Positions 35,563 through 60,633 of a DNA stretch of 64,000 bases are shown piece by piece. The DNA lies in assembly GCA_012719175.1 (NCBI GenBank), contig JAAYAX010000011.1, positions 62,001-126,000 of the forward strand, given 5' to 3'. This stretch comes from Methanomassiliicoccus sp. (GTDB lineage: Archaea; Thermoplasmatota; Thermoplasmata; Methanomassiliicoccales; Methanomassiliicoccaceae). A model generated the notes under the pieces. That model did not search any database. It was not told the DNA's origin and was given only the letters and a program-made list of their open reading frames with translations. Numbering within the stretch: the stretch's first letter is position 1; each line of letters begins with the position of its first letter. Made by a program: the position numbers and the translations under genes.

Positions 35563-36717
35563 TTGGCCAGAGGTGATGGTCTGTCAGGTACCGCCACTAA
35601 CGATCAGATCGAGGACGATTTCGAGTTCGATTGCCCGGAGTGCGGGACGCATATCCATGGAGAGGTGGACCACTGCCCCAAGTGCGGCGTGGAGTTCGTG
35701 ATAGAAGAGGTCGCGGACATCGAGTGCCCCCATTGTCACGCAACGATATCGGGGGAGAGCGTGACCTGCCCGGAGTGCGGCCGCGACATCGACCTGACAG
35801 AGCCGACCCCTGAGCCCGAGCCGGCACCGGCCCCGCTGCCCCCGGCTCCTGCCCCCCCTGTGAACGCTCCACCTGTGAGCTCTCCTCCTCCCGCGGCGCC
35901 GGAACCGGCGGCGGTCCCAGAGGCCGAATCTCCGGATAAGATCAAGGCGGCCAAGGAGAAGGAGATGAAGGAGGAGTTCTCCGACCTTGTCAACGAGGTC
36001 GGTCCCCTGTTGACCCTGGCCAAGGATTACTCCATAGACACCACGGCCACGCGCAGGCTCATAGATAAGGCCGTGGCCCTGGGAAAGCGCCGGGAGATAG
36101 AGCCGGCGGTGGAGACGATGCGGGAGTGCCGGGGAATGCTGGAGCGTGTGATCACCGACAGGCTGGAACGGGACATAATGTACCTGGAGAACCTGGAGGA
36201 CGTGGCCCGCAAGATGGGCTCCGACCACGAGACCATCTCCAGCAACATCGTCGAATCAAAGGACAGGTTGGCGGAGAAGGATTACGCCGCGGCGTTAGAA
36301 CTGGCACGCTCGGGGAAGCACCAGGCCGAGGTCCTCACAGGGAAGTACGTCGAAGCCCACGAGCTGTACGAGTCCCTGGAAAAGCTGATCCTCAATTCAG
36401 AGCGCTTCTACCTTGACGTCAGGGAGTCGCGCAAGCTCCTCAATGAGGCCCGGGACGCGGGGGAGACCGGGGACTGGAACACCATGGGCATCCTCTCCCG
36501 CAAGGGAAGGGAGGAGCTGAACAGGGCCCTGCCGGACATGCTCGCGGAGGAGCTGCGCAAGGCCAAGCAATCTCTCCTGGAGGCTAAATCCAAGGGCAAG
36601 GACGTCACCTTAATGGTGAAGCTCCTGAAGGACGCGGGCGTGTCCATGAAGAGGGGACGCCACGAAGAGGTCCTGGACCGCCTTATCGAGTTCCGTGCGG
36701 AAGAGAAGAAGCTGTGA
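35563..36717 (+). CDS. Double zinc-ribbon protein with coiled-coil domain
   Basis: 384 residues: zinc ribbons CPECGTHIHGEVDHCPKCG and CPHCHATISGESVTCPECG in the first 75 residues, a Pro/Ala/Glu linker (about 80-125), then a helical region of about 250 residues with charged heptads and regular KxxL/RELL patterns. Soluble; likely an adaptor or scaffold. The start is uncertain: TTG at 35563 is given, but a strong AGAGGTGA at 35570-35577 sits downstream of it and just before an in-frame CTG at 35581. A TATA-like AATTATTTAA is at about 35526-35534. Confidence 0.7.
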   Translation: MARGDGLSGTATNDQIEDDFEFDCPECGTHIHGEVDHCPKCGVEFVIEEVADIECPHCHATISGESVTCPECGRDIDLTEPTPEPEPAPAPLPPAPAPPVNAPPVSSPPPAAPEPAAVPEAESPDKIKAAKEKEMKEEFSDLVNEVGPLLTLAKDYSIDTTATRRLIDKAVALGKRREIEPAVETMRECRGMLERVITDRLERDIMYLENLEDVARKMGSDHETISSNIVESKDRLAEKDYAAALELARSGKHQAEVLTGKYVEAHELYESLEKLILNSERFYLDVRESRKLLNEARDAGETGDWNTMGILSRKGREELNRALPDMLAEELRKAKQSLLEAKSKGKDVTLMVKLLKDAGVSMKRGRHEEVLDRLIEFRAEEKKL

Positions 36718-38571
36718 TCACGGCCGCACCGACTCCAGCTCCCGCTCGATGATCGAGCGCTCCTGGAGCCTGAGGCTCTCCGGGCTGATGGACACCACGA
36801 AGATGGCCTGGCGCTCCGAGACCGTGTCCACCATGGCCCGCAGGAACCTCACTACGCCCTCGAAGGTGGCGTTGCTTATCAGGTAGTGAAGATCGTCCAG
36901 GACCACGATCGAGGGACCGTCCAGGCGCATATGCTCCTCCGATAGCATGACTATCTTCTCCAACGAAGGGGGCACGGTCTTGACCTTCTTGGACTCATGC
37001 TCAGTCAGCCAGTAGATCTCCGCCTTTCGGCCAGGGATCTTCTCCCGCACCGAGTTGGGGTTGCTGCGGCTGAACACCAGGCCCCGGTAGCCTTCGTCCA
37101 GCTTGGCGGCCATCAGCTCGTAGGTGAGCTCGGGTCGGGACTCCTCCACCACATAGGAGCGGTGCTCCTCCAGCCTGGCCTTCCGGACGTGGGGAACGGC
37201 CTTCTCGGTCCCCAGCACCTCACGCGCTATGTCCAGGGTGATCTCGGAGCGCATGAGGGAGGCGAACGCGAGGACGCGGTTCATGCCTCCCTCGAGCTGT
37301 CGCACATTGTCCGGGCACCTCTCGGCCACGAAGGCCATGACATCGTCGGGGATCTCCAGCTCAGCATCGCTGGCCAGCCTCTGGAGGATGGCCAGCCTGC
37401 TGGGATGGTCCAGGGGCCCGATGTCCACCACCAGGCCCGACTCCACCCTAGAGGTCAGCCTCTCCAACAGCGCGGGGATCTCCCGCGGGGCGCGGTCGGC
37501 GGTGATGACGATCTGTATCCCTGTGGGCACCAGCTTGTTGATGACCTTCAGCAGCTCCTCCTGCACCCGGTCCTTTCCCGAGAGGTACTGGAGGTCGTCT
37601 ATCAGCAGCAGGCCGGTCTGCTCCAGCTCCTGCCTGGGGCCCTCATAGCGGTTGCCGATGGACTGCAGATACTCCTCGTCCAGGGACTCCAGAGGCAGGT
37701 AGGTCACGCTCAAGCTGGCGTCGATGCCCTTCAGCAGGTGCCCGATGGACTGGAGGAGATGGGTCTTGCCCAGCCCCGTCCTGCCGTGGATGAAGAGGGG
37801 ATTGTACAGATAGCCTGGATCGGCGGCGACCGCGCGCGCCGCCGCCTCCGCGAAGCGGGACCCGCTCCCCACCACGAACGAGTCGAAGGTGAACCGCGGG
37901 TCCATCCTCGGTATCAGCACCTCAGGCGGCTCGCCCTCGCCCGGCGCGCACTTGGGGCAGTAACCCAGGAGGTCCACCGGTCCACCGCATCTCTCGCACG
38001 TTCCTCCGCTGGTCACGTTGGAGCGCATCTTGTGGTACTGTAGGATCAGGTCGTACACGCCCTTGGCCTGCTGGTCCACCTTCTTGCGGTCGGCATCCTC
38101 AGTTGCCGACGAGCCCAGGAGGTCCGCCCCCCGCTGCCCTCCGCCCTGCTCCCCGCGCAGCTTCTCCTGTCGGATCTCGGCCGGCGGCATGGGCCTCCGG
38201 GGGGCCTCCAGCTTCTTGATCCGGGCCTTGGGGAACAACTGCTCGAAGTCCCGCAGGTTGACGTCGCCGTGCAGGGTGATGACCGCCTCGGGCTGGGCCG
38301 CGTCCGCGAACATGTACTCCGTGGCCCTGTCCCCCAGGAACCATATCTCCTCCATGCCATAGGGCTGGAAGACGTTGAGGCAGAAGGTGGGCGCCCCGCT
38401 GGCGAAGGAGAGCAAAGCCTCCGAGCGGTCGCCCTCCTTGGACAGGCTGATCTTAAGGTACCCTGTGAACGAGGCGGCCTTCACACGGCCCAGTGCTTCT
38501 CTTAAGATACCTTCACCTCCCTTCCAACGGGAGACGACCTGTCCCTGCGGTACACCCAGTTCCAGAAGCAC
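36718..38571 (-). CDS. DnaA-like AAA+ ATPase fused to DUF4388-like, zinc-ribbon and DUF835 domains
   Basis: About 617 residues from GTG 38571. Residues about 20-120 are like DUF4388 (LREALGRVKAASFTGYLKIS); 190-208 a zinc ribbon CERCGGPVDLLGYCPKC; 228-470 a bacterial-type DnaA AAA+ core with RFTFDSFVVGSGSRFAEAAA, YNPLFIHGRTGLGKTHLLQSIG (Walker A), LLIDDLQYLSGKDRVQEEL (Walker B) and QIVITADRAPREIPALLERL; 494-615 a DUF835 domain (EIYWLTEHESKKV, IVVLDDLHYLI). DnaA domain IV (DNA-binding HTH) is absent. Archaea normally use Orc1/Cdc6, so this is more likely a signalling or chaperone-like ATPase. The start is unclear: a Met codon at 38694 would overlap the tRNA, and GGAGGTGA at 38513-38520 precedes an ATC codon. 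Confidence 0.75.
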   Translation of the reverse strand: MLLELGVPQGQVVSRWKGGEGILREALGRVKAASFTGYLKISLSKEGDRSEALLSFASGAPTFCLNVFQPYGMEEIWFLGDRATEYMFADAAQPEAVITLHGDVNLRDFEQLFPKARIKKLEAPRRPMPPAEIRQEKLRGEQGGGQRGADLLGSSATEDADRKKVDQQAKGVYDLILQYHKMRSNVTSGGTCERCGGPVDLLGYCPKCAPGEGEPPEVLIPRMDPRFTFDSFVVGSGSRFAEAAARAVAADPGYLYNPLFIHGRTGLGKTHLLQSIGHLLKGIDASLSVTYLPLESLDEEYLQSIGNRYEGPRQELEQTGLLLIDDLQYLSGKDRVQEELLKVINKLVPTGIQIVITADRAPREIPALLERLTSRVESGLVVDIGPLDHPSRLAILQRLASDAELEIPDDVMAFVAERCPDNVRQLEGGMNRVLAFASLMRSEITLDIAREVLGTEKAVPHVRKARLEEHRSYVVEESRPELTYELMAAKLDEGYRGLVFSRSNPNSVREKIPGRKAEIYWLTEHESKKVKTVPPSLEKIVMLSEEHMRLDGPSIVVLDDLHYLISNATFEGVVRFLRAMVDTVSERQAIFVVSISPESLRLQERSIIERELESVRP

Positions 38572-38653
38572 GGCTACCAAGAGAATAACGTGGAGTCGAT
38601 TTAAAGTGTTTATGTCCTCGTTAGTGGACCAGCATAATCGACCACGGTGGAAA

Positions 38654-38663
38654 CCTATAAATT
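38654..38663 (+). promoter_or_regulatory. TATA box for tRNA-Thr
   Basis: CTATAAATT lies about 30 bases before the tRNA 5' end at 38690, the normal spacing for an archaeal tRNA promoter. Confidence 0.55.
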
Positions 38664-38689
38664 GAGGGATGGCTTGATGGATTTCGTCC

Positions 38690-38792
38690 GCCACTGTAGC
38701 TCAGCGGCAGTTCCAGAGGTCCTCTGGGACCGCGAAAGAGCGACAGTTTCGTAAACTGTAGGTCGGGGGTTCGAAACCCCTCAGTGGCTCCA
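38690..38792 (+). tRNA. tRNA-Thr(CGT) with an intron in the D loop
   Basis: Acceptor GCCACTG/CAGTGGC, D stem GCTC/GAGC, anticodon arm ACAGT-TTCGTAA-ACTGT with CGT anticodon (reads ACG), T arm with TTCGAAA loop, discriminator T and encoded CCA at 38790-38792. The D arm is interrupted: 38703-38737 folds into a bulge-helix-bulge (see intron). After removal of 26 bases the D loop is AGCGGCAAA, keeping A14, GG18-19 and A21. The thiC stop lies 3 bases beyond the CCA end on the other strand. Confidence 0.9.
38710..38735 (+). other. Predicted tRNA intron (26 nt) with bulge-helix-bulge in the D loop
   Basis: GCGG (38704-38707) pairs with CCGC (38730-38733) as the central 4-bp helix. Three-base bulges CAG (38708-38710) and GAA (38734-38736) flank it on opposite strands. 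The inner helix TTCCAGAG/CTCTGGGA (38711-38718, 38722-38729; one G-U pair) has a 3-base loop; the outer helix is the D stem. Cutting after the second base of each bulge releases 38710-38735. This is an exact match to the substrate of the archaeal tRNA splicing endonuclease. Position in the D loop is not the usual 37/38 site. Confidence 0.85.
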
Positions 38793-40270: not shown

Positions 40271-43551
<3,281 letters not shown>

Positions 43552-46165: not shown

Positions 46166-46900
46166 TTGGTTGTAGTTTTGAATGTCCGGGGTAAGACTAC
46201 GCTAACCGACTCCATACCGGGGCTCGACCGGATATTCCGGTCGGACATCGAAGCACCAAAGGTGATACTGGTCACCGGCCCTCCGGGCTCGATGAAGACC
46301 AGCTTCTGCTACTCGGTCATGTCGAACTATCTCGAGAAGTCTGGCGAAGTCGGCCTCTACGTGACGCTCGAGGAGACGACGGCCAGCCACCGCAATAACA
46401 TGCAGAGCCTGGGCATCGATCCCAGCCCTAACATGGAGATATCGGACATCACCGACCTCCGGGAGCTGGACGACGTCATCGAGGAGGACAGCCCGACCGA
46501 CTACATCCAATTCATTGAGCAGACCATAGAATATTACAAGAAGAAGCATGGGGAAAAGTTCTCCGTCTTCACCCTGGACTCCCTGGGAGCCCTCTATTCC
46601 CTGATGGAGCACCAGGAGAACATGCGTAAGAAGATGTTCTATTTCTTCAAGACCCTGCGCGATCAGAACCTGATATGCTTCATCGTTATGGAGCGTGTGC
46701 GCGGGGGCCCGTCCGATCTAATGGGGAACGAAGGATTCCTGGTGGACGGCATCATCGAGCTGGGCCTCGACCGAAACAAGGGGAAGTTGGTCCGGTTCAT
46801 TAGGGTAGAGAAGATGAGGGCCTGCAAGCACAGTATGGAAAAGCATACAGTGGAGGTCGGGGAGAGCGGGTTGAACGTCCTGGGGCCGTCCCTGGGATAA
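46166..46900 (+). CDS. KaiC-like RecA-superfamily ATPase
   Basis: 244 residues. LTDSIPGLDRIF is the KaiC-type entry, followed by Walker A VTGPPGSMKTSF and Walker B FSVFTLDSLGAL. GPPGSMKT has Ser-Met in place of the usual Gly-Val but keeps Lys-Thr. Single domain, cytoplasmic. The start is uncertain: TTG 46166 is given, with another TTG at 46178; T-rich TATA-like sequence covers 46135-46165. It precedes the coiled-coil zinc-ribbon gene by 52 bases and begins the block that runs into surface-protein genes. Confidence 0.75.
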   Translation: MVVVLNVRGKTTLTDSIPGLDRIFRSDIEAPKVILVTGPPGSMKTSFCYSVMSNYLEKSGEVGLYVTLEETTASHRNNMQSLGIDPSPNMEISDITDLRELDDVIEEDSPTDYIQFIEQTIEYYKKKHGEKFSVFTLDSLGALYSLMEHQENMRKKMFYFFKTLRDQNLICFIVMERVRGGPSDLMGNEGFLVDGIIELGLDRNKGKLVRFIRVEKMRACKHSMEKHTVEVGESGLNVLGPSLG

Positions 46901-46952
46901 TGTCGCGATCGCGCGGACCGCCTTGTTGGCAAGGATCAATGGAGGGATACAC

Positions 46953-48068
46953 ATGACTACTGATGAGACCCCCATATGGGAGGTCATCGAGCAGTTCAAG
47001 GACAAGGTTAAGACCCAGGAGTCCGAGCTCAAGAAGAGGCGCGACAAGATCGAGTCCTTCGAGGCCGAGCTTGACAAGACCCGTAAGGAGCTTGATGCCC
47101 GCGCCGCCAGGCTGGACGCCCACGAGAAGGACATCCAGTCTCGGTTGGCCGACCTGACGCCGCGAGAGAGTGCGGTCCAAGAGCGGGAGGCCAAGGTGGT
47201 GAAGTTCGAGAAGGAGCTGCTCCAGCGCGAGGAGCAGGTCAACACCTTCCGCAACGAGATGGAGAGGAGGCAGCAGGAGCTGACCCGCAGGGAGGAGGGC
47301 ATCGCCGCCCTGTCCGAGCGGAGCGCCAGCTACGAGAGCAACATCCAGGCCATGAGCGAACACATCCGGCAGATGGAGGAAGGCATCCTCAAGGACCAGG
47401 AGAGGTCCCACCAGCTGCTGGACGAGCTGTCCGCCGCGAGGGAGAATCTGTTGGCCAAGGCCAAGGTACTGGCTGATCAGGAGGCCCTGCTGGCCGAGGG
47501 CCGCAAGGTGGTCCTGGAGGAACAGAAGCGTTTCGTCAAGTGGGAAAAGTCGCTCAACCAGCGCGAGCAAGGTTTAGTCCGGAACGCCTCACCCGCCCCT
47601 GCATCGACGTTCGATTCCGAGCCCGAGCCGATCATCGAGGCAGAGCCTGTCGTGGAGAAGGAGCCCGAGCCGGAGCCCGAGCCGATCATCGAGGCAGACA
47701 CTGTCGTGGAGAAGGAGCCCGAGCCGGAGCCCGAGCCGGAGCTTGAGATCCCCGAGGAGAAGGAGGAGGAAGAGCCCACCCCGGTCTTCAAGGCCGAAGA
47801 AGAAGAGGAGGCGCCTACGCCGGTCTTCAAGGCCGAGCCTGAGGAGGAAGAGCCCACCCCGGTCTTCAAGGCCGAGGAGAAGCCTAGCGGCCCTACCTGC
47901 CCTAGCTGCTCCAAGATCATATCCGAGGACGATGCCTCCTGCCCCCACTGCGAGCACGTCATCAAGGCTCCTCCGACGAAGAAAAAGCCATCTGAAAAGA
48001 AGGACGAGGCAGCCGACGATCCCTCGAAAAAACCGGTTTCCATTCGTAAAATAATTCGCCGAAAGTAG
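46953..48068 (+). CDS. Coiled-coil protein with acidic repeats and a C-terminal zinc ribbon
   Basis: 371 residues from ATG 46953 (MTTDETPIWEVIEQFKDKVK), with GGAGG 10 bases upstream. Residues 1-210 are a long coiled coil (KTQESELKKRRDKIESFEAE and following heptads). Residues 215-310 are acidic repeats: PEPIIEAEPVVEKEPEPE twice and EEPTPVFKAE three times. A zinc ribbon CPSCSKIISEDDASCPHC is near 320-335, and the tail is KKPVSIRKIIRRK. No membrane helix. Probably a scaffold; the basic tail is similar to one in the giant surface protein downstream (PLRRIVRRPVEKK). Confidence 0.7.
   Translation: MTTDETPIWEVIEQFKDKVKTQESELKKRRDKIESFEAELDKTRKELDARAARLDAHEKDIQSRLADLTPRESAVQEREAKVVKFEKELLQREEQVNTFRNEMERRQQELTRREEGIAALSERSASYESNIQAMSEHIRQMEEGILKDQERSHQLLDELSAARENLLAKAKVLADQEALLAEGRKVVLEEQKRFVKWEKSLNQREQGLVRNASPAPASTFDSEPEPIIEAEPVVEKEPEPEPEPIIEADTVVEKEPEPEPEPELEIPEEKEEEEPTPVFKAEEEEEAPTPVFKAEPEEEEPTPVFKAEEKPSGPTCPSCSKIISEDDASCPHCEHVIKAPPTKKKPSEKKDEAADDPSKKPVSIRKIIRRK
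47620..47885 (+). repeat. In-gene acidic tandem repeats
   Basis: Two near-identical copies of a roughly 60-base unit encoding PEPIIEA-x-x-VVEKEPEPEP, then three copies encoding EEPTPVFKAE, all in frame inside the coiled-coil gene. Low-complexity coding repeat, not a CRISPR. Confidence 0.7.
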
Positions 48069-48209: not shown

Positions 48210-51200
48210 ATGAAAGGTCGTATTGTCGCCAATCGAGCTGCGAGCATCCTGATCGCGATAGGTCTCCTGATGTCATCATTCGCTGGAGTGGTGATATTGA
48301 TGGTGAGCTCAAACGAGGCCCAGGCCTCTTTGCCTTCTGACTATTCCAATGGGGACCGTATCATCGGTTCCGATTACTCCATTAAAAGTTGGAACATCAC
48401 CTCGACGTACACGATGAACGGCAACCTGACCATTAGGGACGGTGGCGTGGTCACCGTCACCAGCGGAGGTCTGGTGTTCGCCGAGAACATCGGGGGCGAC
48501 AAGACCGCCGGGACCGCCGACGATCGCGTCTACACATTGATAATCGAGGACGGAGGGAAGCTGGTCCTCAACAACTCGACCCTTTCCACCAACCTCAATC
48601 AGCTGAACGCCTTCCCCAGCTTGGCCGTGATGGTGCGCAACGGCGGGACCCTGGAGGCATATGACAGCGTTCTCAGCTTCCCCGGGCACATGATCGTGGA
48701 CGACTCCACCCTCACCATGTGGCGCTCCAGCATCACCGGCAACGACCAGGTGGGCTCCTACTGCAATGAGACCTACTTCCCTGAATCGTCCTTTAGTTAT
48801 GCTCCGGTCCTGCTCTTCATGTCCTCGACCGTGAACATATACGACTCTTCCCTACCCAACATCTACCAGACCCCTGATCCCGATACTCCCTTCCTAAACC
48901 AGATATACACGGGAATGTACGACCACTCCTACTCCTTCGTCGCTGACAACGATAATGGTTCCAGCGGCGCCAGGGAAGCCGCGGACTACTTCCTTTCCAG
49001 GATGCCCTCGGCCAAGGCCAGCAATGATACCACCGGTTCTGACCTGGACTCCCTGCTGCGTTCCGACATGGAGAACTATGCGGTCGCCAACACCAAGACC
49101 ATGTGGCTGGATGGCTTCGACAGCGGCGGACTGGTGTTCAACGCTGCGGACAACGTGCTGGCCACCCTGCATGTCCAGTACTATACCGGTAACACCTTCT
49201 CCAGCGCCTCCAAGGTGCTGTACCAGTACGAGAACGGGGCCGTAGGGTCCACCGCCATGACCTTCAGCAACACCCCTGTCAATCCCGTAACGGGCACAGC
49301 CGATCAGGTGATCGCCAGCGCGTCCCTGCCGTTCATGTCCTCCCTGGACCTCTCCGGTCTGAACATCGGGTTCTACAACAATGGCGGACAGACACTGTAC
49401 ATCAACAAGGTCTGGATAACCTTCGAGATCACCCTGCCCACCTACACCAGCATAACTCTGGCTGGTAACACGCAGTTCACGGCCGTGAACTCCATGATAG
49501 GCGTGGACTTCTCCGACAAGGAGAACCACAACACCATGGTCCTGCGTGACAACTCCATGGCCTACCTGTATGGTGTCAGCATGGATCCCGATTCTGAGAA
49601 GGAGCCAACAATGGTCGCCAACAGGCAGCCTGCGTTCGTGACCGTTGAGAAGACCATCACCTCAATAGTATCGAACAAGACAGCTGTAGTCGATACCACT
49701 GGATCGTCAATTTCCGCTGCGACTGCAAAAGACGCAAGCTACTATAATGTTCCATATGGTACAACACTCAGCTTACAAAATTTCAACACTAGCGGCCTCT
49801 CTGGTCCGATTAGTGGGGCTTCTTTAGTATTCGACTATTCAGCTAACACATACACTGGCTCAAACTATGTCAAATATAGTGTAAATGGTGGAGCTCTAAC
49901 AAACACCAACATCAGAGTGTCACAGACAACCCATGAAATTGCACCTGAGTTTGACCTATACTCTCAAGGTGTAAACTCAATAGCAGATATTGATACAGTA
50001 GTCGTTCAAACTGTTAATAATGGGGCTTCAGGACAATACTTCGCTGTCAACTGTGTTTGGATAAACATTACACTAAGCCCCACGGTCAACATCTACCGCT
50101 GGGCTAACGTCACTGTATCCGACGTCCAGACCCTGCCTGTCAACGGGGCGATCGTAAGCTCTGTGATAGAGAGCTCTGGAGTTAACGCATACTACAACAC
50201 CCCCGCGGGTGTCCAGAACTATCCATCCAGCGAGGTCCTGCTGTACCTGAACAAGAACTCCAACACCTACAACGTCACCGACAACGAGGGCAAGGCTCAG
50301 ATCCCCCTCCTCTCGGAGGTGCTGGACCCTAAGAACCCCAACCCGTACGCTGCGTTCGCCTACGAGATGACCGTTTCGTACGAGAACACCACCGGCGCCC
50401 TGTTCATGAACAGCACCGGAGTTTCCTTCCAGCCATATCCGGACATGACCCCGGAAAACACCTGGAAGCAGATCAACGTGACCCTGCCCAGCCTGGCCCT
50501 GGAGCTTCCGGACCTGGTGGTGCTGCCAATAACGGTCACGCCTCTGACCGCCTACGAGGGCGACAGCGTACAGATATCGGCCACCGTTCACAACCGCGGC
50601 AAGACCACTGCCACCAAGGTGCAAGTGACCATTGTCGGATATGTCGGAGGTACCAACGCGGCCTTCTGGAACAATCAGACGATCGACACCATAGCTATCG
50701 GCTCTGAGAACGATTACACGCTGTCGACGGTCACCTGGAGCAACCTGCCCGCAGGTACACACACGATAAGCGTGTTCATCGACCCTGAGAGGAAGATATC
50801 CGAGGAGAGCAAGACCAACAACGTGATGTCCAAGCAGCTAACGGTCCTGAAGAACCTGGCCGAGCTCAGCGTGACCGCGGCCGACATAAGCTTCAGCCCC
50901 CAGCCCGCCTCGTCCATCGAGACAGTTACTGCCACCATCTACCTGAACAACACCGGTCGGGCCTCCGCTAACAACGTCACCGTTGACCTCTATGCTGGCA
51001 ATGCCCAGTCGGGCGGCCTGTATATCGGTTCCACGGTCCTAACGGTGTCCATGGGCAGCTTCGCCCAGACCACCTACACATGGATGCCATCCCAGATCGG
51101 TACCTACCCCATCTATGTGTATGTGAACTCGAACCACAACGTCGAGGAGTACGATTACGACAACAACATGGCGTACAAGTCCCTCACCGTCAACATAGCT

Positions 51201-54200
51201 AGCACCGGCTCTGACCTGGTGGTCGGCGAGGCCCAGTACCCCACCCTTACCATAACCGGCCCCAACGCCTTCAACTGGGCGTACAATGTGCTGGTCGTCA
51301 ACGACGGTGTGCTGACCATAACCAACACCGCGTTCACCGAGGTGCAGTCGAGCTCCTATCAGCTGAAGATCATCGTCAAGGACGACGCGACCCTCAGGCT
51401 GATGTCAGGCACGTCCCTGAACTCCAATCTGCACATCGACCTCTATCTGATGGACAACGCCAACCTGACGGTGGAAGGTTCCACCATATCGTCGGCGGTG
51501 CACATCCGGGCCGATGGCAACGCCCAGGTCTACATGACCTCGTCCACGGTAGCGGGGGACCTGGTCACTCCGGAGACCTCCTACGCCGAGGTGGTGGCCA
51601 TCGATACCAACTTCGGTCAGTCCTGGTCCTCCTTTGGAGGCCACGCGACCGCATATGTGACAAACATCTCGATCCCGTCCCTCAACCCCAAGGACTCCGC
51701 CACCATCTACCACTACCGCTGGGTAAAGGTCGTGGTGCTGGACGGTACGGGGGAGAGGCTCCCCGGAGCTGACGTCTCCATATACCACCCTGTCAATGGA
51801 GCATACGGGGACGACCAGACCGGTGCCGACGGCTCGATCAACTTCCGCGTGCTGACCGATATACGGACCGCGGGCATGTCCACCTTCGAGGGCTTCCTCG
51901 GCAGTTATTTCGCCAACGCCAGCTACACCTATGGAGGCCAGACGTTCTATGGAATGTACACCATGAACGTGGGCGTCGTCGGCTACTCTGAGCCGGTGAC
52001 CAGGACATCGATGGCGCCGGTGACCATCAGCATCGCCGATGCCCTCCCCGACCTGGACCCGCCCCTCGATCTGACCACGACCACACCATACCACTACCAA
52101 CAGGTGACCGTCAGTACCGAGGTCTCCAACATCGGAGTGGTGGCCGCCCGTGACGTGGACGTGTACTTCTACGAGACCGGTGTCACGTTCTACCACACCA
52201 CGATCGGCTACATCGCTCCCGGTGAGACCGTGTCCGTTTCCACCATATGGACCGCTTCCATCCTAGGGCAGCGGAACATCAGCGTGGCCATCGATCCCTT
52301 CAACCGCATAGCGGAGTTCGACAACACCAACAACGGCAACTACACCCTGGTGTCCGTCCATGGGATACCCGATCTGTACGTGGCCTCTGGCGATGTCGTG
52401 CTCACTCCCTCCTCTCCGATCAGGGACCAGAGCGCGACCATCAAGGCCAAGGTCCATAACAACGGGGACGTCTCCGCCGAGGACGTGAGGGTCAGCTTCT
52501 ACGCGACCGATCCCTCTGGAGGAGTTAGAACCCTACTGTCCGACACCACCCTCAGCTACATAGACGTCAACGACTATGCCGAGGCCTCCATATCCTGGAA
52601 CCCCAGCATGGCCGGGACCTACATACTGGAGGTCGTCATAGACAGGTTGGGAACGATAACCGAGATCTCGGAGGCCAATAACACCTATTCCTTCGAGCAG
52701 AAGGTCCTGAACTTCGCCGACCTCAGGGTCAGCTACGTCGTGTTCGACCCTGCCAGCCCGGTGAGCGTCAACGATGATGTGAGCATCGAAGCCTCGATCA
52801 AGAACATCGGGGACATCGCCGCCACCAACGTGCTGGTCCACTACTATCTGGGCAGCAGCTCCACGGGCACCCTCGTGGACACTGAGGTGATATCCACCAT
52901 AGCTGCCGGACAGACGGTGACGATGACGGGCCACTGGATCGCAAGCATCCCCGATGGGGAGGGCAGCCAGGACGTACAGATCACCGTGCTCGTGAACCCT
53001 GACCTCCCCGGCCGCATAGGCGAGGTCTCCTACACCAACAACGAGGCCGTCATGACCCTCGCGGTCAATGACCAGCGGGCGGACCTGACCTTCGATAACG
53101 ATATGGAGATCACCCGGGCGAACATCGAGGTCACCCATGCCAGCCAGGGTGAGACGGTTAACATCACCGTCACTGCCATGAACATCGGCAGCACCTCCGC
53201 CAGTGCCGTGAAGGTCCTCTTCTATGCTGTGGACGAGGATGGCAACCCAGTGCGGTTCGCCACCGTGACCAAGGACATCGGCATCGGCAAGGAGGTAGTG
53301 GTCAACACCACATGGCTGATCAACCGGGCCATGGGCAACTACACTATCCTCATCACCATCAACGAGGACGGGCTGATCGAGGAGAGCGACCACATCAACA
53401 ACAACATAACCAAGGCCTTCGTCATCGATGCCCCCAACGCCAAGATCGACCTGAACCCCCTGGAGGGTTCAGACTACAAGCCTGGTGAGAGCATCCTGGT
53501 GACCGGCAAGGTCACCAATGAGAACACCAGCGAGGCCATTTCCGGCGTGACCGTCACCGCCTACCTGGTCAAGAACGGACAGATGGTTGGCGAGCCCTTC
53601 ACCGCCAAGACCGGCGCCAAGGGTACCTACACCATATCCCTGTACGTGCCTGACGGTGCCAGCGGCGACTACCAGGTGCACACCTCGGTGACCATCGGCG
53701 ACAAGACCACCAGCACCTTCAAGAACGTCAGCATAAAGGGCGTGACGGAGGGCGGCGTCCCCTGGTACCTGTACCTGGTGATCCTCGCGGTCATCGCCGC
53801 GGCCATCTTATTCTTCTCCGTATGGCTGTACAAGTACGGCCTGGGGAAGATGGTGGAGTGCGGCGAATGCGGCGCTCTGATACCTGAGGCCTCGAAGCGC
53901 TGCCCCAAGTGCGGCGTGGAGTTCGAGGTCGGTACCGCGAAGTGCAGCGAGTGCGCAGCATGGATACCGTCCAACTCCTCCACTTGTCCAGAGTGTGGCG
54001 CCAAGTTCATCAACGAGGCCATCGCGGAGGAGGAGAACGCCTACCTCGCCAAGATGAGGGAGCAGTACGATGCCTACGCCGAGACCTTCCGGGCCGAGGC
54101 CAAGGTGGCCATGGGCAAGAAGTACTCCGACACCAAGTTCACGGAGTGGTGGAAGAAGCAGCCGACCTTCGTCAGCTTCGAGAGCTGGCTGTCCAAGGAG

Positions 54201-54536
54201 GAGGAGAAGCGCAAGTTCAGCGGATCCTCCTGCCCCACCTGCGGAACCCTCAACCCCCGCGGCGCCACCATCTGCCACAAGTGCGGCTCCAACCTGGAGC
54301 AGCCCAAGGCGGAGGAGCCCAAGGCGGAGGAGCTGAAGGTGGACGCGGCGCCGGCACCGGCCGAGGAGGCCAAGACGGAGAAGGCTCCGGCCAAGCCCCT
54401 GAGGCGCATAGTGCGCCGGCCAGTGGAGAAGAAGGCCGTCCCCAAGCTGGAGGACATGAAGCCGGTCGAAGGCCAGGAGGCTCCCCTCGAGGAGAAGCCG
54501 GAGGAGAGTCCCGAGGGGAAGAAGCCTGAGAACTGA
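48210..54536 (+). CDS. Giant CARDB-repeat surface protein with cytosolic zinc ribbons
   Basis: 2108 residues. Signal/anchor helix at 11-32 (ASILIAIGLLMSSFAGVVIL). Residues 45-760 are beta-rich and include two related jelly-roll-like units, around 300-410 and 485-625. CARDB domains begin near 765, 883, 1278, 1386, 1502 and 1624 (for example LPDLVVLPITVTP, IPDLYVASGDVVLTP, FADLRVSYVVFDP), with a beta-helix-like part near 1000-1230. A membrane helix at about 1852-1874 (YLYLVILAVIAAAILFFSVW) is followed by cytosolic zinc ribbons CGECG/CPKCG, CSECA/CPECG and CPTCG/CHKCG, and a Pro/Glu tail. Long extracellular stalk plus cytosolic zinc ribbons suggests an adhesin or sensor tied to a cytosolic partner. 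The DNA at 49660-50085 is AT-rich against GC-rich flanks. Confidence 0.82.
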   Translation: MKGRIVANRAASILIAIGLLMSSFAGVVILMVSSNEAQASLPSDYSNGDRIIGSDYSIKSWNITSTYTMNGNLTIRDGGVVTVTSGGLVFAENIGGDKTAGTADDRVYTLIIEDGGKLVLNNSTLSTNLNQLNAFPSLAVMVRNGGTLEAYDSVLSFPGHMIVDDSTLTMWRSSITGNDQVGSYCNETYFPESSFSYAPVLLFMSSTVNIYDSSLPNIYQTPDPDTPFLNQIYTGMYDHSYSFVADNDNGSSGAREAADYFLSRMPSAKASNDTTGSDLDSLLRSDMENYAVANTKTMWLDGFDSGGLVFNAADNVLATLHVQYYTGNTFSSASKVLYQYENGAVGSTAMTFSNTPVNPVTGTADQVIASASLPFMSSLDLSGLNIGFYNNGGQTLYINKVWITFEITLPTYTSITLAGNTQFTAVNSMIGVDFSDKENHNTMVLRDNSMAYLYGVSMDPDSEKEPTMVANRQPAFVTVEKTITSIVSNKTAVVDTTGSSISAATAKDASYYNVPYGTTLSLQNFNTSGLSGPISGASLVFDYSANTYTGSNYVKYSVNGGALTNTNIRVSQTTHEIAPEFDLYSQGVNSIADIDTVVVQTVNNGASGQYFAVNCVWINITLSPTVNIYRWANVTVSDVQTLPVNGAIVSSVIESSGVNAYYNTPAGVQNYPSSEVLLYLNKNSNTYNVTDNEGKAQIPLLSEVLDPKNPNPYAAFAYEMTVSYENTTGALFMNSTGVSFQPYPDMTPENTWKQINVTLPSLALELPDLVVLPITVTPLTAYEGDSVQISATVHNRGKTTATKVQVTIVGYVGGTNAAFWNNQTIDTIAIGSENDYTLSTVTWSNLPAGTHTISVFIDPERKISEESKTNNVMSKQLTVLKNLAELSVTAADISFSPQPASSIETVTATIYLNNTGRASANNVTVDLYAGNAQSGGLYIGSTVLTVSMGSFAQTTYTWMPSQIGTYPIYVYVNSNHNVEEYDYDNNMAYKSLTVNIASTGSDLVVGEAQYPTLTITGPNAFNWAYNVLVVNDGVLTITNTAFTEVQSSSYQLKIIVKDDATLRLMSGTSLNSNLHIDLYLMDNANLTVEGSTISSAVHIRADGNAQVYMTSSTVAGDLVTPETSYAEVVAIDTNFGQSWSSFGGHATAYVTNISIPSLNPKDSATIYHYRWVKVVVLDGTGERLPGADVSIYHPVNGAYGDDQTGADGSINFRVLTDIRTAGMSTFEGFLGSYFANASYTYGGQTFYGMYTMNVGVVGYSEPVTRTSMAPVTISIADALPDLDPPLDLTTTTPYHYQQVTVSTEVSNIGVVAARDVDVYFYETGVTFYHTTIGYIAPGETVSVSTIWTASILGQRNISVAIDPFNRIAEFDNTNNGNYTLVSVHGIPDLYVASGDVVLTPSSPIRDQSATIKAKVHNNGDVSAEDVRVSFYATDPSGGVRTLLSDTTLSYIDVNDYAEASISWNPSMAGTYILEVVIDRLGTITEISEANNTYSFEQKVLNFADLRVSYVVFDPASPVSVNDDVSIEASIKNIGDIAATNVLVHYYLGSSSTGTLVDTEVISTIAAGQTVTMTGHWIASIPDGEGSQDVQITVLVNPDLPGRIGEVSYTNNEAVMTLAVNDQRADLTFDNDMEITRANIEVTHASQGETVNITVTAMNIGSTSASAVKVLFYAVDEDGNPVRFATVTKDIGIGKEVVVNTTWLINRAMGNYTILITINEDGLIEESDHINNNITKAFVIDAPNAKIDLNPLEGSDYKPGESILVTGKVTNENTSEAISGVTVTAYLVKNGQMVGEPFTAKTGAKGTYTISLYVPDGASGDYQVHTSVTIGDKTTSTFKNVSIKGVTEGGVPWYLYLVILAVIAAAILFFSVWLYKYGLGKMVECGECGALIPEASKRCPKCGVEFEVGTAKCSECAAWIPSNSSTCPECGAKFINEAIAEEENAYLAKMREQYDAYAETFRAEAKVAMGKKYSDTKFTEWWKKQPTFVSFESWLSKEEEKRKFSGSSCPTCGTLNPRGATICHKCGSNLEQPKAEEPKAEELKVDAAPAPAEEAKTEKAPAKPLRRIVRRPVEKKAVPKLEDMKPVEGQEAPLEEKPEESPEGKKPEN

Positions 54537-55258: not shown

Positions 55259-56941
55259 TCAATCGGCCATCTTTTCCTTGACCTCTTTCATGACCTTCTC
55301 GGGGTCCTTGTAGTACGCGGACACGATCTTGGCCACCTGTCGGTAGTTGTTGACCCCGATCTTCTTCATGTACTCCAGGATCTCGATGCGGCGCCGCACC
55401 TCCCTCTCCATCTCTCGGGGGGACCAGTTGCGCACCGCGCGGACCTTCTCGTAGGTGTAGGAGTGCCCGGAATAGGTGAAGCTGTCGTCCGCGGGGTTCC
55501 ATGTGAACACCGAGTTGGTGATGAGCTCCCCGGTCTCGGGGTCCATGCCCACTATCTCCGTCAACCCCTTGACGCGACGGGTCATCTTCGTCCCCACCTT
55601 CACCTGTCCCTGCAGCAGCACCAGGTTCAGTGCGGTGAGAAGGGCACGGGGCAGATCGATGGGTTCGTTCTCCAGCCTGTGGACCATGGCTTGCACGTCC
55701 TCGGCGTGGAAGGTGGAGTAGGATATGTGGCCGGTGGCCATGGCCTGGAAGACGACGTATGCCTCCTTGCCACGGACCTCACCGACCATCAGGTACTGGG
55801 GTCTCTGCCTCAGCGCGGCGGTGAGGAGGTCGAACATATTGATCGATCCGCTCAAGGCCCCGCTCTTGCCCCCGAACCCCTCCCTGGTCAGGCCAGGGAT
55901 CCAGTTCTCATGGGGAAGGTTCAGCTCCCTGGTGTCCTCGATGCTAACGATCTTCATCTGAGGAGGGATGAACAGCAGGATGGCGTTGAGGGTGGTGGTC
56001 TTCCCCGACGCCGTTCCCCCGCAGACCAGCATGGATGAGCCGAACTCGACGGAGATCCACAGGTATGACATCATCTCCGTGGACATGGTCTTGAACTTCA
56101 GCAGGTCGACGGGGGTGAAGGGGTTGTCCTTGAAACGCCGGATGGTGAACGACGATCCACGCTTGGTGACATGCTTCCCCAGTGTGGCGTTGAGCCTGGA
56201 GCCGTCGGGGATGGTGGCGTCCAGCAGGGGGTTGGCCACCGAGATGTGCTTGCCGCACTTCTGGGCCAGCCACACCACGTAGGCGTCCAGTTCCTGTTCG
56301 TCATCGAAGGTGATGTTGCTCTTTATGCTCCCATACTTGCGGTGGTAGATGTACAGGGGGATGCCCACGCCATCGCAGGACGCGTCCTCGATGCTGGGAT
56401 CGAACATCATGACGTTGATGACCCCGTATCCGGTGAAGTCACGGCGCAGGAAGTACAGGATCCTCTCCTTGGAGATGGGGTTGAGGTTCACGTTGAGCTT
56501 GGACAGCACCCTCTCGGTGGCCTTGTTGAGGATGTCCCTCTTCTGCTCCAGGTCGTTGGTCTCGGCCAGATTGAGGGATATGATGAGGGAGCTCTTCAGG
56601 AGGTCCAATACGTTGTGCTCGTCCTCCGTTAGCATGGGCTCGATGACCTCATATAGGTACTCCCCGGCCACGGTATCGTACTTTATCCTGACGAAGGAGT
56701 ACGGTTCCTCTATGGGTGTGACCTCCACCTCCTCTATGTTGGGGTCGGAGATCTTGGGTATCTCGGTTATGGCCGACGCTTCCGTGGTGGTGCCGGAGGG
56801 CAGCCTGACCCTCATGGGCTTGCTTCGGACCTTCACCAGGAAGGACATATAGCGGGAGGCCACGGAGAGCTTCTCCTTCTTGACCTTATTCTCGTCCTCG
56901 AACAGAGGCTCGATCTCTTCTTGCCGCATCGCTTCGTCCAT
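55259..56941 (-). CDS. Type IV pilus assembly ATPase 2 (TadA/ArlI-like)
   Basis: 560 residues. MRQEEIEPLFEDENKVKKEK, then the secretion ATPase core: VCGGTASGKTTTLNAILLFI (Walker A), QMKIVSIEDTRELNLP (Asp box), RQRPQYLMVGEVRGKEAYV (Walker B) and ATGHISYSTFHAED (His box). Hexameric motor that energises pilin assembly. Last gene of the minus-strand operon; its ATG overlaps the region of the upstream stop (1-base gap). Closely resembles the ATPase at 58885 but clearly distinct in sequence. Confidence 0.92.
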   Translation of the reverse strand: MDEAMRQEEIEPLFEDENKVKKEKLSVASRYMSFLVKVRSKPMRVRLPSGTTTEASAITEIPKISDPNIEEVEVTPIEEPYSFVRIKYDTVAGEYLYEVIEPMLTEDEHNVLDLLKSSLIISLNLAETNDLEQKRDILNKATERVLSKLNVNLNPISKERILYFLRRDFTGYGVINVMMFDPSIEDASCDGVGIPLYIYHRKYGSIKSNITFDDEQELDAYVVWLAQKCGKHISVANPLLDATIPDGSRLNATLGKHVTKRGSSFTIRRFKDNPFTPVDLLKFKTMSTEMMSYLWISVEFGSSMLVCGGTASGKTTTLNAILLFIPPQMKIVSIEDTRELNLPHENWIPGLTREGFGGKSGALSGSINMFDLLTAALRQRPQYLMVGEVRGKEAYVVFQAMATGHISYSTFHAEDVQAMVHRLENEPIDLPRALLTALNLVLLQGQVKVGTKMTRRVKGLTEIVGMDPETGELITNSVFTWNPADDSFTYSGHSYTYEKVRAVRNWSPREMEREVRRRIEILEYMKKIGVNNYRQVAKIVSAYYKDPEKVMKEVKEKMAD

Positions 56942-56942
56942 G

Positions 56943-57845
56943 TCAGATCAACCTCGTTCCTAATAGACCTATCAGCAGCATGATGAAGCTGTGCTTCAGG
57001 CCAGTGGATATCTGCCCATCCGAGAGCACACCTGCCAGTATACCATCGCCGAACGCGTGTATGACCACGGATATGATGAACAGCAGCTGCACCGTGGGTA
57101 TGATGTTGACGCGGATGGTGGCTATGGAGCTGGTATCGATCCCTGCCTTCTCTGCGCCCTCGGCCACCGCCGCCCCCGCCTCTGTCATCTTCGGCAGGAA
57201 GGTGGAGTTCAGGATGAAGATGGTGGCGATGAACACCGCGAACGCGATGTAGATGACCATCATGTAGGTGGACATGGCGATCTTGCGCTCGGCCTGGTTG
57301 AGCATGTTCTCGCGGGCATCGTGGGCGACCATAGTGAGCACGTCCGCGACCGATCCCCCGGCGTCGTTGGCCTTGATGATGATGGAGGTCATTCTCCTGA
57401 TCAGGGGTGTGTCCACCCTCTCCGCGAACAGGCGCATGGCCTCGGATGCAGGCACCCCCCAGTCGATCTGGGCGGCCATCCGGCGTATCTCCGGGGTCAG
57501 CTTGCCGTAGCGGCCCCGGGAGGCCACCTTGATGGCCTGGGCCAGGGTCATGCCGAAGCGGCCGGCCTCGGCCACATCCCGCAGGAACTCCGGAAGGCGC
57601 TTCTCGATCTCCTGTATCTTCTTCCTCCGGGAGGACACGTAGAACCCATATGGCCCGCTGATGGCCATGAGCGCCAGGCTCACATAGTCTATCCATAGCA
57701 GGGGGGTGTCCAATCCGCCGATACCGTCCAATAGTCCGATGACCAGTAGTATCGCCGCTATCACCGCGGATACCATGAGGATGGTGCGGCTGTAGTCGAG
57801 CTTCTGAATGTCCAGTTGATCCAGGTCCATTATGTCCTCGGCCAT
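56943..57845 (-). CDS. Type II/IV secretion F-domain platform protein (TadC-like) 2
   Basis: 300 residues with membrane helices at about 20-40 and 60-75, a cytoplasmic T2SSF domain (RRKKIQEIEKRLPEFLRDVAEAGRFGMTLAQAI ... SEAMRLFAERVDTPLIRRMT), then helices near 190, 250 and 280. The F-domain repeats GMTLAQAI and PxSxAMxxF are typical of the pilus inner-membrane platform. Sits between two ATPase genes with the second platform gene 9 bases upstream. Confidence 0.88.
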   Translation of the reverse strand: MAEDIMDLDQLDIQKLDYSRTILMVSAVIAAILLVIGLLDGIGGLDTPLLWIDYVSLALMAISGPYGFYVSSRRKKIQEIEKRLPEFLRDVAEAGRFGMTLAQAIKVASRGRYGKLTPEIRRMAAQIDWGVPASEAMRLFAERVDTPLIRRMTSIIIKANDAGGSVADVLTMVAHDARENMLNQAERKIAMSTYMMVIYIAFAVFIATIFILNSTFLPKMTEAGAAVAEGAEKAGIDTSSIATIRVNIIPTVQLLFIISVVIHAFGDGILAGVLSDGQISTGLKHSFIMLLIGLLGTRLI

Positions 57846-57854
57846 GCCATCACC

Positions 57855-58895
57855 TCACATCGTTGACTCCTTGGTCATGTTCCAAATGAAGAATATGAAA
57901 CCGAACTGGCTCATGGGGATCATGAGCCCGATCACCAGTTGCAGCAGAAGTATGGTCATGGAGCTGTCCCCGCCACCACCCGGGACAATGGCCATTATGG
58001 CCATGATGACCACCAGGAATAGCGGGAACGCGACCACCACGGTGACGAACGACTCCGCCATTAGCCCCAGGCTTTCCAGCTGGGACTTCATCTCCAGCTT
58101 TCCCTCCTTCTCGTACTGCTCCGCCTTCTGCAGGAAGTAGGGCTTGAGCTGCCCACCGGAGGTGGAGCTGGTGACCACGCCCTGCAGGAACTCCTGGAAC
58201 TTTACCGACGGCGTCCTCTGGGCGGCGCGGTTGATGGCTGTAAGGATATCGATGCCCAGGAGCTCAGTGTCACGAGTGATCCACTCCGCCTCGTGCTTTA
58301 TCTCACCATAGATGTCCTGCTTGGCAAGCTCCTTGAAGATGACGTCCACGTTGACATCAGCGGACGCCATTGCGGAGATGAAGCTCATGGCCGCCCCTAT
58401 GCGCTTGTTGATGTCGCGGGCACGGGTCTTGGCCTTCGAGCCCGGGATCGACATCAGGACCATGTACGTGAGCAAGGGAGGCATGGCAATGAGCAGTACG
58501 GTGAACACCAGCACCAGGGCCGGTTGGACGTTGAAGAAGGCCAGGAGCAGACCTCCGAAGAGGGCGGCTATGGCCGTGCTGATGGCGAACACGATGAAGG
58601 TGCTCATCCAGACGTAGGCTACGTACTCCTCGGGCCTCATCCTCATGTGGGCCTGCAGAAGTTGCTGCTCCAGCTTGGGATTGGGCTTAGCTCGTAGCTT
58701 CGCCGCCTTCCCCATCGTCCTCCAGCACAGCATCTGATAGGGAGTGAGGGCGATGTAGTCGGGAATGACCCCTTCAGGCAACTTGATGATATGGGGTCCC
58801 CAGACCTCAGTATGCTCCGAGGTCCTCTTGGTCTTCATGTAGTTCTTGTTCTTGGCATCGAACTTGGTGAATGAATCGGAGATATCAGGCGCCAA
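57855..58895 (-). CDS. Type II/IV secretion F-domain platform protein (TadC-like) 1
   Basis: 346 residues with a long N-terminal cytoplasmic part, paired helices (YVWMSTFIVFAISTAIAALF, PALVLVFTVLLIAMPPLLTY), a T2SSF domain (INKRIGAAMSFISAMASADVNVDVIFKEL ... GIDILTAINRAAQRTPSVKF) and C-terminal helices (FPLFLVVIMAIMAIVP, VIGLMIPMSQFGFIFFIWNM). It forms the membrane platform with the next gene. Its start overlaps the upstream ATPase stop by 11 bases. Confidence 0.88.
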   Translation of the reverse strand: MAPDISDSFTKFDAKNKNYMKTKRTSEHTEVWGPHIIKLPEGVIPDYIALTPYQMLCWRTMGKAAKLRAKPNPKLEQQLLQAHMRMRPEEYVAYVWMSTFIVFAISTAIAALFGGLLLAFFNVQPALVLVFTVLLIAMPPLLTYMVLMSIPGSKAKTRARDINKRIGAAMSFISAMASADVNVDVIFKELAKQDIYGEIKHEAEWITRDTELLGIDILTAINRAAQRTPSVKFQEFLQGVVTSSTSGGQLKPYFLQKAEQYEKEGKLEMKSQLESLGLMAESFVTVVVAFPLFLVVIMAIMAIVPGGGGDSSMTILLLQLVIGLMIPMSQFGFIFFIWNMTKESTM

Positions 58896-60633
58896 CGGCG
58901 ATCCCCCCTTCCTGCAGCTCCCGGCGGACCTTGGTAACGGTCTTGTCCGGGTCCTTGAGGTACTGGTTGATCAGCTCCCAGATCTTGTGGTGATCGGTGA
59001 TATCTCTGAACACCATGTACTTGATGAGGTCCACCCGCCGGTCGAACTCGGCGGACATCTCCTCGTTGGTGAGGTTCTTCATCTCCATGATCTTGTCGAA
59101 GAGGAAGCTGTGGCCCTTGAACACGAAGCGGTCCGTGGCCTGGTCCCACTCGTACACCGTGTTGGAAATGAGCTCATTGGTGTCGGGCTCGAAGCCAACG
59201 ATCTCGATGACCTGCTTCATGCGCCTGGTGAGGTCCTGGCCTACCCTGACCTGAGATTGTATGATGACGTTCCTGAGGGCCGTGAGCAATATACGGGGAC
59301 AGTTGATAGGCTGGTTCTCCAGCCTGTTGACCATTGATTGGACGGAGTCGGCGTGCATGGTGGAGTAAGTGGTATGCCCGGTGGCCATGGCCTGGAACAT
59401 AGTGTACGTCTCCTTACCTCGGACCTCTCCCACGATGATGTAGTTGGGCCTCTGACGCAGCGAGGCCCGCATCAGATCGTACATGTCGATCTCTCCTGCG
59501 GTCTTCCCGTCCGGACCCCTTTCTCCCACACCGGACCGGGTCGTACCCGGGATCCAGTTCATGTGCGGGAGGTTGATCTCACGGGTATCCTCCATGGTAA
59601 CGATCTTGGCGCCGGGAGGAATGAACAGTGCCAGGGAGTTCAGCGTGGAGGTCTTCCCCGACGCCGTGCCGCCGCAGATGATCATCGATTCCCCGTTCTC
59701 CACGCCCAGCCAGAAGTACGCGATCATCTCCGCGCTGGCGGTCTTGGACTTCACCAGGTGCACGGGGGTGAAAGGCTTCTCCTTGAACCGCCGTATGGTG
59801 AAGGTGGAGCCTCTTGTGGTCACCTCGCGGGCGTACGTGGCCTGTATACGGTGACCTTCCGGGGATGTGCCGTCCAATATGGGGTTGGACACCGAGATCT
59901 GCTTACCCGATCTCTGGCCAAGAGCGACCACATAGTTATTGAGCGCATCCTCATCATCGAAGATCAGTCCGGTCTTGAGGCTTCCGTACTTGCGGTGGTA
60001 TATGAACAGGGGGATGCCCACTCCGTCACAGGAGATATCCTCGATGTTCTCGTCGCGCATGAGGATGTCCACCTTTCCGTAGCCGACGAAGTCGCGCAAG
60101 ATGTAGTAGTTGAGCTTCTTCTTCAGCAGAGGATCGACCTTCATCCCCCTGCTGGTGAGATATGACTCCACGCTCTCCACCAAGTATTCCTTCTTGTCCA
60201 GGCTGGTGAGCTTGGTCCACTCGTACCCCAGGGCACGTCCCAGGGTGTCCTTGATAAGGAGGAGGAGCTTCTCATCATCCTCCGTGAGCTGGGGCTCCAG
60301 CGACTCCATGAAGTACTCGCTGGTCTCATTGTCATAGGTGATGCGGGCGTAGCTGTATGGCTCCAGCACCGGGTACAGCTCGACCGATTCCACATGCGTG
60401 TTCTCTATCTTGGGTATCTCCGTGATGATGGAGCCTACGCCCTTGGACCACTCGATCTTCTGCTTGACCTCGGCCTTGGAGAGCATGACCCTGCCGGCCC
60501 TGTTGGGAGCCACCCTCCGTATGAACTTCAGGTACCTGTCCCGCGCCTTCTCCACGGCCCTATCCTTGGGGGGCTCAGGATCGACCATTTTGGTCCTCTT
60601 CCCCTTCTTGTTCATCGGTTCGGCCTCATGCAT
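58885..60633 (-). CDS. Type IV pilus assembly ATPase 1 (TadA/ArlI-like)
   Basis: 582 residues. After a basic N-terminus (KKGKRTKMVDPEPPKDRAVE) comes the same core as ATPase 2: ICGGTASGKTSTLNSLALFI, GAKIVTMEDTREINLP, RQRPNYIIVGEVRGKETY and ATGHTTYSTMHADSVQSMV. All nucleotide-binding elements are intact, so both motors in this operon should be active. An in-frame Met six codons in is an alternative start. Lies 9 bases after the pilin-like gene. Confidence 0.92.
   Translation of the reverse strand: MHEAEPMNKKGKRTKMVDPEPPKDRAVEKARDRYLKFIRRVAPNRAGRVMLSKAEVKQKIEWSKGVGSIITEIPKIENTHVESVELYPVLEPYSYARITYDNETSEYFMESLEPQLTEDDEKLLLLIKDTLGRALGYEWTKLTSLDKKEYLVESVESYLTSRGMKVDPLLKKKLNYYILRDFVGYGKVDILMRDENIEDISCDGVGIPLFIYHRKYGSLKTGLIFDDEDALNNYVVALGQRSGKQISVSNPILDGTSPEGHRIQATYAREVTTRGSTFTIRRFKEKPFTPVHLVKSKTASAEMIAYFWLGVENGESMIICGGTASGKTSTLNSLALFIPPGAKIVTMEDTREINLPHMNWIPGTTRSGVGERGPDGKTAGEIDMYDLMRASLRQRPNYIIVGEVRGKETYTMFQAMATGHTTYSTMHADSVQSMVNRLENQPINCPRILLTALRNVIIQSQVRVGQDLTRRMKQVIEIVGFEPDTNELISNTVYEWDQATDRFVFKGHSFLFDKIMEMKNLTNEEMSAEFDRRVDLIKYMVFRDITDHHKIWELINQYLKDPDKTVTKVRRELQEGGIAVGA

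Follow-up and report, generated by a model that had tools for sequence, protein, structure and literature searches.

What would an archaeon do with the motor domain of DnaA? In parts of the archaeal replication literature, DnaA of bacteria is set against Orc1/Cdc6 of archaea. A DnaA-type ATPase is encoded in the genome of a Methanomassiliicoccus sp. (GenBank assembly GCA_012719175.1), within a stretch of 64,000 nucleotides that is referred to below as the window (contig JAAYAX010000011.1, positions 62,001 to 126,000), and its AAA+ core is joined to a DUF835 domain. A preliminary description, made from the sequence alone, suggested that the oligomer-forming machinery of DnaA is used here for another purpose, such as signalling or the control of surface proteins. 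Here, the domains of the protein, its distribution and its neighbourhood are considered in turn, and the possible roles are weighed.

Domain architecture of the fusion protein

The gene and its parts are located as follows:

36718..38694, minus strand: DnaA-type AAA+/DUF835 fusion protein (open reading frame; Pfam, NCBIfam and PDB matches; structure model)
38227..38556, minus strand: N-terminal domain, residues ~47-156, weakly DUF2226/DUF4388-like (family HMM 2e-34; pLDDT ~80-90)
37948..37998, minus strand: zinc ribbon CERC-x9-CPKC, residues 233-249 (sequence; CxxC scan)
37213..37902, minus strand: DnaA domain III AAA+ core, residues ~265-494 (PF00308; Foldseek match to 8bv3)
37753..37788, minus strand: Walker A (HGRTGLGKTHLL)
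37432..37470, minus strand: Box VII arginine finger region (LLERLTSRVESGL)
36733..37161, minus strand: DUF835, FlaH/KaiC-like fold without Walker A, residues ~512-654 (PF05763; model; Foldseek; ArlH/FlaH HMMs)

The fusion of a DnaA-like AAA+ domain, a zinc ribbon and DUF835 that had been described is real, and its open reading frame extends further than noted, encoding 658 amino acids from a GTG at 38694. The start given earlier, 38571, is a second in-frame GTG and an alternative start of the gene; it may be the true one, because the first ~40 residues have pLDDT <50 and lower conservation than the remainder of the protein. From the N to the C terminus, the protein consists of the N-terminal domain, the zinc ribbon, DnaA domain III and DUF835, and its AlphaFold model has three separate blocks of good quality. 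An orthologue of the same genus is 95% identical across the 658 amino acids, and over DUF835 the closest named relative (97%) is a Methanomassiliicoccus MAG.

The AAA+ core is of the DnaA type, and not of the Hda, DnaC or Orc1 type. Bac_DnaA (PF00308) matches the window protein at 4.2e-46 (157 bits, cut-off 23), and in Foldseek the core model aligns with domain III of B. subtilis DnaA (8bv3) at a TM score of 0.93 and 46% identity. The best sequence match in the PDB is likewise B. subtilis DnaA (~209 bits), followed by the DnaA proteins of T. maritima and A. aeolicus, with Hda far behind. The Hda model TIGR03420 scores 110.3 bits, short of its cut-off of 194.8, and Orc1/Cdc6-type matches in the protein are limited to ORC1 at E 0.01-0.04, two of them falling on DUF835. 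The full-length DnaA model TIGR00362 gives 5.7e-74 (249.7 bits), under its cut-off of 343.9, and domain IV (PF08299) has no match in the window protein or in its genome, so that the earlier reading of the core as bacterial DnaA domain III without domain IV holds.

The Walker A motif GKTH is conserved in 24 of 24 aligned fusions, most of which also retain Walker B, sensor I, the Box VII arginine and the sensor II region. The motifs are degenerate in families f7 and f11, and some family members have no arginine finger. Walker B is followed by GKDR, basic residues that we take to be equivalent to the ssDNA-contact region of DnaA. At the DnaA ISM position, the Methanomassiliicoccales members have a hydrophobic residue, and neither this residue nor the basic residues are conserved across the class.

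At the C terminus, DUF835 was recovered well above its cut-off (PF05763, 4.1e-23, 82 bits against 33.1). The preliminary description had named two findings that would refute it, a core that belongs to another AAA+ clade and a missing DUF835, and neither is the case. The 154-residue DUF835 model has a mean pLDDT of 94, and Foldseek places FlaH (4yds, TMq 0.66) at the top, followed by BcsE, RecA and KaiC. The FlaH HMM matches 17 of the 24 DUF835 members (best 8.5e-6), and the ArlH HMM matches 10. No GxxxxGK[ST] Walker A is conserved in the aligned DUF835 domains. When compared as profiles, DUF835 and the neighbouring KaiC do not match significantly, so that their kinship rests on the fold and on the ArlH/FlaH HMMs. 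As judged from its predicted structure, DUF835 is a pseudo-KaiC/FlaH fold from which the P-loop is absent; it has been classed as iKaiC and is known in response regulators (Galperin 2018, PMC5847659). Nine further matches to the DUF835 part are found in the same genome (contigs C4, C5, C8 and C13; loci L002-L008), one of them in a 1471-aa open frame.

The N-terminal domain had been labelled DUF4388-like, which was not confirmed: PF14332 (cut-off 25 bits) has zero matches in the window protein or in its genome, and a single one of 21 family members matches DUF4388, at E 0.028. The nearest weak match within the family is DUF2226 (PF09987), found in the N-domains of 7 of the 21 members (best 4.6e-4), the window protein not being among them. 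No winged-helix or HTH domain exceeds the Pfam cut-off in the protein.

Distribution, descent and loss of the AAA+ domain

The phylum was surveyed with PF00308, and strong matches were found in many families among 390 Thermoplasmatota genomes; many relatives have no such gene, and genome-level matches to PF00308 are also seen in control archaea. The spread of DnaA-type genes across Thermoplasmatota, which the preliminary description had proposed to check, makes them a lineage trait. Four architectures are seen among the 46 strong-PF00308 proteins that were read:

Architecture 1: N-domain, (zinc ribbon), DnaA III, DUF835
Architecture 2: N-domain, long helical repeats, DnaA III, double zinc ribbons
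Architecture 3: short forms of ~420 aa
Architecture 4: divergent form of 600-700 aa (families f34/f42)

In group f34 (loci L073, L075 and L076), the divergent DnaA-III-like protein of 600-700 aa is present in ~69 of the 72 sampled genomes with different neighbours, e.g., citrate synthase, and constitutes a separate, nearly universal lineage trait.

In maximum-likelihood trees, the archaeal cores are placed among bacterial DnaA, near Gram-positive sequences, and Hda is on a very long branch. The DUF835 fusions of the class group together (support 93/77), with a branching that tracks the genome families, which fits vertical descent. A single clade of all archaeal DnaA-type cores is neither shown nor rejected (p-AU 0.27). 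All 24 loci recovered with the order-level DUF835 alignment are in archaeal MAGs, labelled as Methanomassiliicoccales, Thermoplasmata or unplaced Euryarchaeota/archaeon. Bacterial contamination was rejected as the source of the window gene, given the vertical branching and flanks that are syntenic across families. A bacterial-type DnaA domain III ATPase may have been captured in Thermoplasmatota, with the DnaA-box-binding domain IV either lost or never present.

The relatives provide built-in natural controls in the form of orthologues without the AAA+ domain. In a subset of family f3, of which six genomes were read, the orthologue at the same locus is ~335-356 aa long and consists of the N-domain and DUF835 only, the neighbourhood being retained as well. 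These AAA+-less orthologues group in one clade nested within AAA+-bearing lineages; the tree has a single change, which we interpret as one loss of a domain that this clade can do without. In three other genomes (f1, g3), the DnaA-type gene is gone and the gene of its partner, described below, remains.

Neighbourhood and the linked KaiC ATPase

The neighbouring genes considered here are the following, the last five forming a type IV pilus (T4P) block:

35563..36717, plus strand: partner, a zinc-ribbon and helical protein, tail-to-tail with the DnaA-type gene
46166..46900, plus strand: KaiC-family ATPase with Walker A GPPGSMKTS (PF06745 2e-37; sequence; co-occurrence)
46923..48068, plus strand: coiled-coil protein with a C-terminal zinc ribbon
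48210..54536, plus strand: giant CARDB surface protein (CARDB 6e-72, DZR 3e-9; sequence)
55259..56941, minus strand: PilB/GspE-type ATPase (PF00437 5e-32)
56943..57845, minus strand: PilC/TadC-type membrane protein (PF00482 2e-21)
57855..58895, minus strand: PilC/TadC-type membrane protein (PF00482 2e-13)
58885..60633, minus strand: second PilB/GspE-type ATPase (PF00437 1e-31)
60643..61584, minus strand: pilin-like protein (DUF7289 4.5e-5, below the family cut-off; syntenic in relatives)

The DnaA-type gene and its partner meet at their stop codons (36717/36718), and at least nine families have this pair. KaiC is separated from the DnaA-type gene in the window by thiC, gyrB and gyrA, and it is on the opposite strand from the T4P block. 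The gyrase genes had been described as not adjacent, which is literally correct with thiC in between, but thiC-gyrB-gyrA-kaiC is a stretch conserved within the order Methanomassiliicoccales. The same three genes are interposed in the supercluster in Methanomassiliicoccales and in family f10. Families f12 and f19 carry the DnaA-type gene, the partner, KaiC, the coiled-coil/CARDB genes and the T4P block uninterrupted, and KaiC directly adjoins the partner in f12, f15, f18 and f19. With the window counted, KaiC, CARDB and T4P genes are found together at 12 loci in seven families, in two arrangements. The window's GyrB (40333-43551, plus strand) is 1072 aa long, against ~630 aa in several relatives; its insert is intein-like, with a homing-endonuclease-like middle, and is present in some same-genus copies too.

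The CARDB protein (2108 aa) has a C-terminal membrane-like segment followed by zinc ribbons. Several proteins of the supercluster contain zinc ribbons, including the DnaA-type protein (also 35563-36717, 46923-48068 and 48210-54536), and KaiC has none. The shared zinc ribbons may point to a zinc-ribbon-mediated assembly of the supercluster proteins.

A conserved genome neighbourhood is not proof of shared function. Among 150 genomes of the class, this KaiC orthologue and the DnaA-type gene are both present in 72 and both absent from 66, with KaiC alone in 6 and the DnaA-type gene alone in 6 (P = 6e-28, Fisher test, uncorrected for phylogeny). Two of the six KaiC-alone genomes carry the AAA+-less orthologue. 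Where the two genes share a contig, the distance between them is 2.7-13.1 kb in 35 of 36 cases. PilB1 matches are found in 142 of the 150 genomes, and T4P homologues are widespread without KaiC or DnaA-type genes. Since PilB1 is far more widespread, the tie between the KaiC and DnaA-type genes goes beyond the pilus. In the distant families f25 and f35, the DnaA-DUF835 gene overlaps at its end with, or is followed by, a small gene for a RadA/KaiC-like ATPase (L048:3575-4267).

Candidate roles and known systems

Orc1/Cdc6 is present in 390 of 390 Thermoplasmatota genomes, which rules out its replacement by the DnaA-type protein. A role of the fusion as replication initiator is unlikely: domain IV is missing throughout the family, every genome has Orc1/Cdc6, and one clade does without the AAA+ domain. 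For the same reasons, there is good support for the proposal that a DnaA-type module is re-used for something other than origin recognition. Domain IV exceeds its cut-off in 1 of the 390 genomes of the phylum, a Thermoplasmatota MAG with a full-length bacterial-type dnaA (L079, G335:C23) on what is probably a contaminant contig. The window has 0 matches to the DnaA box TTWTNCACA, 1.1 being expected by chance. A special link to orc1 was considered and rejected: the spacing of ~40-45 kb is also seen with AAA+-less versions (G083, G168) and is thus ordinary synteny.

Could the protein regulate replication instead, in an Hda-like or Orc1-assisting manner, through AAA+ contacts and ssDNA binding, with DUF835 as signal input? 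The ATP switch motifs of DnaA are intact, the basic GKDR presumably matches the ssDNA-contact region, orc1 is ~40-48 kb away in several genomes (45 kb in that of the window), and gyrB-gyrA are close. We nevertheless regard such a role as improbable, considering the missing domain IV and DnaA boxes, the universal Orc1/Cdc6, an orc1 spacing that is kept where the AAA+ domain is lost, the absence of the arginine finger in some family members and the many relatives without the gene. A regulator of transcription or of the nucleoid, in which an AAA+ filament and zinc ribbons act on DNA, would agree with the zinc ribbons that both the protein and its partner carry and with the hydrophobic ISM-position residue in Methanomassiliicoccales; it is highly unlikely, as winged-helix and HTH matches above the Pfam cut-off are lacking in the protein and the basic and ISM residues vary across the class. 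Scarcely credible is an AAA+ domain that is a vestigial passenger of an N-domain/DUF835 protein: its single loss from a clade that keeps the rest and the degenerate motifs in f7 and f11 could be so explained, but Walker A is intact in every aligned member and the domain has been retained with family-consistent branching. A more serious alternative, though still a doubtful one, is a signal-transduction hub that is linked to KaiC but not to the pilus in particular; chromosomal conservation would then account for the nearby T4P and CARDB genes. In its favour, the distribution of KaiC matches that of the DnaA-type gene much more closely than either matches that of the T4P ATPase, and DUF835 occurs in response regulators (PMC5847659). 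Against it, KaiC, CARDB and T4P genes are together in seven families in two different arrangements, and the association of KaiC with T4P is known in other archaea (PMC4858521).

The reading we prefer, to which we give an even chance, is that a DnaA domain III motor has been re-used, at a locus for surface filaments, in a control system linked to KaiC. By analogy with DnaA, ATP binding would lead to head-to-tail oligomerisation of the AAA+ domains. The oligomer would array the C-terminal DUF835 pseudo-ATPases, which could then pair with, or compete within, the rings of the neighbouring KaiC. A possible model for this step is provided by ArlH rings acting on the archaellum motor ATPase, ArlH being known to act on ArlI (PMC8978795). 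The zinc-ribbon helical partner, the coiled-coil zinc-ribbon protein and, through its zinc ribbons, the CARDB protein may serve as adaptors, and the likely output would be the controlled assembly or activity of a T4P/CARDB surface apparatus. The earlier suggestion of signalling or surface-protein control has gained context from a linked and co-occurring KaiC, a CARDB protein and a T4P block, and the function itself is inferred. More tentatively, the DnaA-type helical AAA+ assembly could be the missing second component of a KaiC switch for T4P and CARDB, with no role in replication. FlaH-like/KaiC ATPases have been predicted to be T4P regulators whose second component is mostly not known (Makarova 2016, PMC4858521), and the DnaA-type protein is a concrete candidate for this partner. 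Some observations weigh against the preferred reading: the three interposed genes and the opposite strand of the T4P block in the window, the wide occurrence of T4P homologues without KaiC or DnaA-type genes, the lack of a significant profile match between DUF835 and KaiC, and the report that Methanomassiliicoccus luminyensis is non-motile (cited in PMC4858521). The DnaA motor domain, widespread across one phylum of archaea, lacks the DNA-anchoring domain there and is tied to a KaiC ATPase; it offers a natural case in which the uses of the DnaA oligomerisation switch outside oriC can be seen.

A literature search with most subscription journals outside its scope found no paper in which DnaA and DUF835 occur together, and parts of the archaeal replication and T4P literature, most subscription journals aside, contain no mention that we found of an archaeal DnaA-type protein. 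The archaeal T4P loci with KaiC regulators (PMC4858521) resemble the window in having KaiC beside PilB/PilC-type genes, and the main text on them does not mention DnaA or CARDB. Bacterial DnaA (B. subtilis, 8bv3/8btg) shares the AAA+ core and all nucleotide-switch motifs with the window protein, in which domain IV and a recognised domain I are absent, a zinc ribbon and DUF835 are found instead, and the host has Orc1/Cdc6. Hda, the regulatory inactivator of DnaA, is alike in combining a DnaA-type AAA+ domain with the lack of domain IV, but its model (TIGR03420) scores 110 bits here against a 195-bit cut-off, its branch is very long, and the present host has no full DnaA to inactivate. DUF835 (iKaiC) signalling proteins, e.g., REC-DUF835, share PF05763, whereas theirs is joined to receiver and PAS domains. 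ArlH/FlaH and the archaeal KaiC-like ATPases share the DUF835 fold, the T4P/archaellum context and, in the window, a true KaiC neighbour; in contrast to them, the DUF835 domain studied here has no Walker A and is fused to a DnaA-type ATPase.
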